This document shows, one piece after another, positions 5,702 to 8,900 of a stretch of 64,000 nt of DNA (the first letter of the stretch is position 1; each line of letters begins with the position of its first letter). Position numbers and translations under genes: made by a program. The notes beneath the pieces were generated by a model. It ran no database searches. It saw only the letters and a list, made by a program, of their open reading frames with translations, and was not told the DNA's origin. The DNA is from Owenia fusiformis. Lineage: Eukaryota; Annelida; Polychaeta; Sabellida; Oweniidae. Location of the stretch: positions 12,630,714 to 12,694,713 of the forward strand of contig CAIIXF020000007.1 in assembly GCA_903813345.2 (NCBI GenBank). Direction: 5' to 3'.

Positions 5702-5935
5702 ATATATAGATTACCTTTTGGTTACATTCTGCAACTAATCTTTCAAGAATATATAGATTACCTTTTGGTTACATTCTGCAACTAATCTGTCAAGAATATA
5801 TAGATTACCTTTTGGTTACATTCTGCAACTAATCTGTCAAGAATATATAGATTACCTTTTGGTTACATTCTGCAACTAATCTGTCAAGAATATATAGATT
5901 ACCTTTTGGTTACATTCGGCAGCTAATCTGTCAAG
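5702..5935 (-). repeat. 47-bp tandem array built from a TEX9 exon end and its splice donor
   Basis: Five 47-bp units run head-to-tail. Read on the minus strand, each holds a copy of the last ~33 nt of TEX9 exon 8 followed by the GTAATC donor. The exon/donor boundary is at 5903 in the real exon and recurs at 5856, 5809, 5762 and 5715. The four extra copies share changes (GTTGCAG for GCTGCCG) that the true exon lacks. They therefore spread from one diverged duplicate rather than each from the exon. Confidence 0.9.
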
Positions 5936-8900
5936 TTCCTCTTGCATGACTCGTAGTTTTGCCTTCAGGAACCTCATCTGAGCCTCTGAAATGTAACAAG
6001 CAAATTAAGCCTTCAACTTAGATACATACATGATGTGCACTGGGAGGTTTTGGATGCATGATTTATCCCAATAGTAATATCTATCTTCAGAGGGACTGTA
6101 TAGTGCAGGGACCAAGTGTAAATACACATATTCATCAAGGGATAAATCCTCCAAAACTGACCGTATATAGTAATTGCTGATACTAGGAAATATACATTTC
6201 TTATTCACTCAACTTTAAAAAAAATGAAAATGTAAACTCTTTCTCAATATTATAAGTTTACAGCACTTAGAGAATAGAGAGATTTCGCACATAAGTGAAA
6301 GTACAACTTATACGTATACGTATAGTTTAGTCGAACTATTATATTTACTAAAATCAATTTTAAATTGTACTTAATGGAACATAACTATTCCCGTTATAGA
6401 AAAGCTCCATCAACTAGAGACTGTGAATGCACTGTCATCTGCACGTGTAGATTATGCACATTATAATTAAATGCTTGCTTCCGTGTCCTTGTTGTTGTAG
6501 TGTATTATAAACACGATCCTTTAAAGTGAGTCATGATTCTTTAAAGTGAGTCATTACATAAACAAGTTGATTATTTCAATGTTTTCATGATCAGTATAAG
6601 TTCAGTGAACTTACAAAACGGTATATTTACGTAGATGATAACGTGTACAGTTGGATCTCCATATAAAGATTTGCTTACATGTGTGTGGAACAATTGACCG
6701 CAAGCATTTTTTGAAATTAATTGGCTGAGTGGGAACAGTATCCAATCAAATACTTTAACCATCAATTTGAAACACCAATCAAACCAGTAGGTTCTAGCAA
6801 TTCCTGGAAACGACCCATTCAGTAGCTCAACATATGACATACAGGGTGTTTCATAACGAGCATCTCCAAAAGTCAATTTGAGAAGAGATGGTTCTATAAC
6901 ATATGTACTATATATGAGCCTATTTTATTCTAGACAAACACATTTGGATCAAATAAACATGCTACAATTCAAGAAAGTACAAATGGCATCCCTTTGACTT
7001 GTATTTACTACAGTCCGAGAAGATCTTTCCTGACGAAAAGCCCTCATTATGAATCACATTGTACGTTTACCTATAAGTATAAGTATACGTTATAAGTTGT
7101 ACTTTCACTAGGTGCGAAATCTCTCTATTGGCACAATAATATATGCTATGCAGATGATCAAAACCTTAATACTGGACAAACTTGGGACTTTTACATCGTA
7201 GCAAACAGCTAATGTAAGGTGTTTGATGAGCGTATTGAGATCATTAAGATCTAGTTTTGATGTAATGATCAATATATTTAAATGAATTAGTTTAAATTGA
7301 AATTGCTCCATAATAGAGTTTAGGAAACACTTAACACACAAACAGATCAACATGTGTTACCCATTCATGTAAATTATTGTATATTATCTTAGAATGAATT
7401 AAATAAAAAACACTCACCCGCTCCCATCTCTGCAGCAGCCATAGGGAGAACATCATCATGAGTGTCCTCTGCTAAAGTTCCATCATCCAATTGACCTTCT
7501 ATGTTAGAGATGGTATCTTTAAGGGAGAACTCTTTAAAGTCGGTCATAAATGCATCATCAGTTGTTGCCACGTCTTGTGCAATATTGCTGGCCTTGGAGC
7601 TACCTTTGGTACGACTACTGGAATTTTTAAAGAGAAGTAATTAGTTAATTATTTTAGATGGGTAATACCCTGATGCTATCAATAGCAATTTCACATGACC
7701 CTTTGAGCAAATCATAGTGCTGATGCAGAACTGATCGAGACTTTAATGACCTAAAAATAAACCACTCGATTATGCTGGTTACCGAAACGGTGAAGGTACG
7801 ATTTTACTTTTTTCCTTATTTCACATGTTGTAGGCAGAATTCCAACGACATTTTTTACACAAACGTGTTTCAGTATCATATGTTTAAGAAAGTGTACATA
7901 TTTGCGAACAAATAGTTCAGAAGACAACTGAATCGTCGATTTAATTCCTCACTCAAGTTACATAAACAGTTTTCGAAAAACAGTTAAGATCTGCACTTTT
8001 AACCCAAACCATTTATGTAACTTAAGTGAGGAATTAAATCGACGATTCTGTTGTCTTCTGAGCTATTTTTTCGCAAACATATACATTTTCTAAAACATAT
8101 GATACTGATACACGTTTGTGAGAAAAAACGTTTTGGGGGATTCTGCCTGCAACGCGTGAAATAAGGAAAAAAGAAAAATCATACCTTCGACGTTCAAACA
8201 TTTTGTTTCGGTAACCAGCGTAATCGAGCGGATCACCAGTGTAAAGGGAATTTGAATACAAAATGAACCTCCGTGCAGCTACTTACTGTAGATTGGGTTA
8301 ATTTGCCGCTACTTAATTTATTACTTTTATTTTATGAGGCTATTTAATTTGATGGATACCAGTGCTTGGACATTACTCTGGCGAAAATGTAGATTGGCGT
8401 TTTTTTCCTATTTTGCAAGATTCGCCAAATTAAAGCAGGTGCCATATTAACCCCCAGTATACATGTATGCAAATAACAATGTAGTGACCCAGTGACTCAA
8501 GACTCTGATTGGGTAGGCATTTTACTCCTGATTTCAATTGGAAAGGTGATTTGAAGAGCAGAAAAAGCATTCTTTAAGATACCCAAGGTCAAGATTCTAC
8601 AGATTACTATCCTGATTATGTCATTGGTTGTATCTTTTCAATATTAGTAATAATAAGCTAATCCTAATTTTACTTAGACAGGATAGCTACCTACAACCTA
8701 TGATATTATCAATGTAGCCAATATACATGTATTATTAAATCATGAGAACTGACCTTGATCTGACCTTGGCTGACTGTGACCTTGCAGAGTTGGAGATCTT
8801 GGAGGAAGGTCGTGAAGGAGGCTGAAAGGTCATCAAAAAACATTATTCACAAATGAATTGACATTACAATACTAATTACAAGTTTTAAATGCTTTGATCT

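Follow-up and report, generated by a model that had tools for sequence, protein, structure and literature searches.

In the window, by which we mean the whole 64-kb stretch of DNA analysed, open frames on the minus strand form the exon series of a TEX9-like gene, with exons at 10.1 kb, 9.8 kb and 7.6 kb, a less certain one at 8.8 kb and, after these, the exon that carries the array described here. Downstream exons lie outside the window, in the stretch L006, where they start near window coordinates -247, -760, -1300 and -2650. The exons follow one another on one strand and include apparently TEX9-like N- and C-terminal stretches; two of the downstream exons matched a TEX9 C-terminal query, one with 77% identity (E 1.2e-9) and the other with 83% (E 1.3e-5). 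TEX9 is presumably the appropriate gene name, and the assignment of the array exon to TEX9 in a preliminary description of this DNA is supported as TEX9-like. A Pfam search matched no TEX9 model, and a PDB search with the peptide of the array exon gave only chance-level coiled-coil matches. Paralogues or retrocopies of the gene were not found in the genome, where the concatenated exon peptide had three matches, all of them in this gene. The terminal coding exon (...SEEEFVKALEWGN, stop) itself runs into a tandem array (Table 1), and a further array of 34 bp x 19.7 is located at window positions 4371-5038, within the same TEX9 intron that holds the array under study. This intron also contains, on the opposite strand, a 348-aa open frame (window 2979-4025, + strand) with a Pfam HLH match (E 6.6e-5). 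Elsewhere in the window, an open frame of 1421 aa without a stop extends over positions 22372-26634 of the + strand, and a satellite of about 162 bp at positions 50646-51518 has a similar consensus to one on another chromosome (L038:497-1270); this satellite is probably transposon-related.

The array consists of 5.0 units of 47 bp on the minus strand (TRF, 5701-5935, 98% matches, score 449). By comparison, 20 first-order shuffles of the window gave TRF scores no higher than 72, and in 15 of them no array scored 50 or more. Each unit comprises 33 nt of exon end and 14 nt of intron start, and the donor AAG/GTAATC is intact in all five units. The units are thus arranged head to tail with exon and intron sequence across a splice boundary, which was placed from the reading frame, and by the same reading frame the authentic 5' splice site is the one in the first repeat. 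The exon that follows the array-bearing intron (DETTHVIQGKLKDLEE) starts in phase 0 and joins donor 1 in frame. In the preliminary description, the TEX9 exon end and its donor had been seen as five tandem copies of a unit with about 33 nt of exon and a GTAATC donor, and as a minisatellite born from a splice site; TRF and the unit alignment agree on the copies and on the composition of the unit, and seeding of the array on the exon-intron boundary is supported. The donor positions given there (5903, 5856, 5809, 5762 and 5715) mark the exon base that immediately precedes each GT.

Table 1. Positions of the features of the TEX9-like array and of exon-edge arrays at other loci (window coordinates unless a stretch is named)
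Feature	Position	Strand	Side of exon	Remarks
TEX9-like coding exon, 83 nt	5903..5985	-		begins one base into a codon and ends in phase 0; its final 33 nt form the exonic portion of unit 1
Unit 1 (exon copy), donor GT at 5902	5889..5935	-	donor	2 differences from units 2-4: GCTGCCG for GTTGCAG
Unit 2, donor GT at 5855	5842..5888	-	donor	
Unit 3, donor GT at 5808	5795..5841	-	donor	identical to unit 2
Unit 4, donor GT at 5761	5748..5794	-	donor	identical to unit 2
Unit 5, donor GT at 5714	5701..5747	-	donor	1 difference: TTGAAAG for TTGACAG
First 27 bases past donor 1	5876..5902	-		in frame VIYIFLTD then TAG, the stop met by every later donor
Array-bearing intron, in-window part	1..5902	-		6149 bp in total; runs on to window coordinate -246 in L006
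40-bp x 15.4 array	L006:697-1296 (window about -3303 to -2704)			each unit repeats the end of the coding sequence, the stop codon and sequence beyond it
93 bp x 3.9, kinesin	L011		acceptor	weak coding-identity support (Pfam/PDB)
42 bp x 3.5, kinesin	L017		acceptor	clear coding identity (Pfam/PDB)
64 bp x 17	L023		acceptor	weak coding-identity support (E 0.0019 and 0.028)
87 bp x 3, KIF2-like	L031		acceptor	clear coding identity (Pfam/PDB)
61 bp x 4.5, myosin	L077		acceptor	clear coding identity (Pfam/PDB)
82 bp x 8.2, KIF5-like	L032		donor	clear coding identity (Pfam/PDB)
61 bp x 14	L015		donor	homology support absent (Pfam/PDB; 0 families)
34 bp x 4, myosin	L071		donor	4 exon bases per unit only; clear coding identity (Pfam/PDB)

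With regard to the consequences of five donors for splicing, the preliminary description had argued that use of any later donor shifts the frame. This is correct for donors 2, 3 and 5, but donor 4 (+141 nt) keeps the frame, and the argument from frame shift is therefore incomplete. The decisive feature is the in-frame TAG, since a transcript spliced at any of the four later donors would carry eight extra codons and then this stop, so that all of the later donors are truncating. The five donors share the same 9-mer and hence the same computed U1 pairing (-6.6 kcal/mol, compared to a range of -5.4 to -13.7 for seven other donors of the TEX9-like gene), and what separates the copies must therefore be their position rather than their strength. 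Judging from the reading frame, the first, exon-proximal donor alone is probably used.

The TEX9-like array is an exon-edge minisatellite of the published 'mirage' class. Mirages in amphioxus are reported in Adh3, the globins BflGb6 and BflGb9, TnC and PGBD5, with units of 10-160 bp, and RT-PCR suggested regular splicing, with haplotypes of 6 and 3 units reported (PMC3087553; PMC3902484). Like the TEX9 array, they are minisatellite-like tandem duplications across an exon-intron boundary with splice signals kept in many units; they have been reported gene by gene in lancelets, whereas the TEX9 array belongs to an annelid. In this genome an annelid erythrocruorin-linker domain exceeded its cut-off with 3 matches; the GFP family, taken as a lancelet marker, had no match, but neither did any control for it. 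The globin study also mentions that the splice signals of the repeats could produce aberrant transcripts (PMC3087553). Intron 7 of human F7 contains repeats of 37 bp. The real 5' splice site lies in the first of them, to which the later ones are highly homologous; the report cites Borensztajn 2006 for use of the first site only, and a +5 mutation of this site led to exon skipping and to the use of downstream cryptic sites (PMC6627357). F7 thus resembles the TEX9 array in having the authentic donor in the first repeat followed by homologous repeats, but differs in gene and in unit length (37 bp versus 47 bp). Among annelids, earthworm metallothionein also has minisatellites in an intron, and another clone has tandem exon duplications that are absent from the transcript; repeat units spanning an exon-intron boundary are, however, not described in the passages on these genes (PMC12783039). 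Among the papers listed by literature searches, none was recognised as describing such arrays in an annelid, which does not prove their absence from print.

We consider it highly probable that the TEX9 array is a minisatellite seeded on an exon junction, in which the first donor is the sole productive site and the four later donors are decoys spliced out with the intron. According to this model, a stretch of 47 bp straddling the 3' end of the TEX9-like exon would have been duplicated in tandem, and the array would then have expanded to five units, and been partly homogenised, by the usual turnover of minisatellites. The coding sequence would survive because productive splicing would be confined to the first copy of the 5' splice site, the one next to the exon, and the four downstream donors would normally be removed with the 6.1-kb intron. 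Where a decoy was used, the protein would gain the short tail VIYIFLTD and stop, and the message would probably be degraded. The array in TEX9 would seem to be neutral, and is most likely a tolerated by-product.

The alternative with the strongest case, although an unlikely one, is that the array is regulatory, with the extra donors used at a real rate and the number of units tuning the share of unproductive message. In its favour, the four decoys are identical and intact, splicing at any of them would run into the one in-frame stop, and the donor has no G at +5. Moreover, in the one local fold computed, the mean unpaired probability was 0.35 at donor 1 versus 0.53 to 0.65 at the later four; if this lower accessibility of donor 1 is real in vivo, it would favour use of the decoys and speak against use of the first donor. 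However, identity among the units is expected from recent expansion alone, and the nearest precedents show either undisturbed splicing or use of the first site.

A second alternative, that tandem units give rise to mini-exons or new introns, is less probable still, even though every unit holds AGGT and AG sites and there are several precedents. Intron gain by tandem duplication is documented, and the duplicated segment with AGGT near a splice site is comparable to the TEX9 unit (PMC4974935); mirages have been proposed as a route of intron gain in the globin paper (PMC3087553); and tandem repeats at exon-intron boundaries are reported to form novel introns in some human genes, and may do so in human paralogues (PMC2812944). 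The preliminary description had noted that units carry the acceptor-like motifs TTGACAG and TTGCAG, and had suggested that these could bracket tiny exons. The motifs are present as noted with the exception of unit 1, which lacks TTGCAG, and unit 5, which has TTGAAAG, but the tiny exons are doubtful. Only 22 nt separate a donor from the TTGACAG of the next unit, a good pyrimidine tract is absent, a 25-nt exon starting from TTGACAG would hold an in-frame TAA and a 14-nt exon starting from TTGCAG would shift the frame. The gaps and stops in the TEX9 sequence argue against a new intron being spliced between the duplicates. Least probable of all is an assembly artefact or a wrong number of units, since, error-prone as tandem arrays are in assembly and although the locus has one match in the whole genome, modern reads easily exceed 235 bp, the units at either edge can be told apart by their differences and like arrays are present at other exon edges.

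These other arrays were found by sampling the top-scoring loci for three domain families, kinesin (30), DEAD (24) and myosin (16). The sample amounted to 211.5 kb in 62 unique stretches; it contained 110 domain-hit segments and, at a period of at least 30 and at least 2.5 copies, 30 arrays. When inspected by eye, 8 of these 30 arrays lay on an exon edge, on either the donor or the acceptor side (Table 1); six belong to kinesin loci and two to myosin loci, and in the DEAD-family loci no array of at least 2.5 copies was seen on an exon edge. For three stretches (L041, L045 and L038) the judgement was based on the unit and the open frame only. Several candidates were not counted, including one of 31 bp x 5.2 (L036), whose overlap with a kinesin donor is some 4 bases and whose units have changed bases, four arrays (L022, L035, L056 and, of 33 bp, L068) that lie within roughly 10-25 bases of an exon edge and contain no exon sequence, and an acceptor-like candidate with 1.9 copies (L046). 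At another locus (L037; G000:C2:23265700-23270100), a kinesin motor exon, which we take to be KIF4-like, is repeated whole together with its acceptor, giving 18 matches at a 159-bp spacing (TRF 17.9 copies, 97%; Pfam Kinesin E 3.8e-13). Among the 144 kinase matches listed, two close neighbours (C10:2256896 and 2257074) matched one and the same stretch. At G000:C9:37986009-37994334, roughly the same part of the myosin head (profile about 18-84) is matched twelve times with uneven spacing, possibly by a cluster of alternative exons in a muscle myosin gene.

In the KIF2-like gene, the direction of the duplication can be read from the units. The copy joined to the exon body has ECIRALG, as KIF2 does (E = 4.2e-15), and the units of the upstream array read ESLSALG; because the exon-body copy keeps the KIF2 reading and the units differ from it, the exon is here the source of the array. 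In a comparison that left out L037, the genic copy differed most from the other units in the TEX9 array and in 4 of the 7 other arrays (L032, L015, L031 and L017), but not in the remaining three (L023, L011 and L077), so that escape of the genic edge from homogenisation is no general rule here.

A preference of arrays for exon edges was not established by either of two automatic rules applied to the 62 sampled stretches. Using the edges of domain hits, which only approximate exon edges, 4 of the 30 arrays touched an edge compared to 1.73 expected under random seed placement (P = 0.089). Looser array limits gave 4 of 43 compared to 2.42 expected (P = 0.22), and stricter limits 3 of 19 compared to 1.45 (P = 0.17). 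With a near-edge rule at 0, 10, 25 and 50 bases, 4, 4, 5 and 6 of the 30 arrays were scored, with 2.23, 2.58, 3.13 and 3.84 expected (P 0.17 to 0.25). As no preference was shown, a heavy load of minisatellites, of which 75 TRF rows in the 64-kb window are an indication, together with tolerance at exon edges is sufficient, and the minisatellite load alone may explain the arrays at exon edges. The 4 arrays at 220 hit edges (110 segments) suggest a frequency on the order of 2%, which is approximate, the sample being small and biased in its genes.

Tentatively, and with doubt slightly outweighing belief, exon-edge minisatellites could be common throughout this genome, affecting something like 2% of conserved exon edges, whether at the donor or at the acceptor, and including arrays of whole exons, so that the genome would represent a natural experiment on the choice among identical splice sites and a supply for new introns and exons. 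What makes these arrays of interest is their apparent abundance in this genome. Identical donors in a row separate the position of a splice site from its strength without any engineering, and acceptor-side arrays set the mirror-image task, in which the final one of several near-identical acceptors has to be picked. Should the frequency in the sample hold, the genome would offer numerous natural tests of this kind, and unit number, mis-splicing and the gain of introns or exons could be followed within a single species; if true, this would extend mirages beyond the lancelets.
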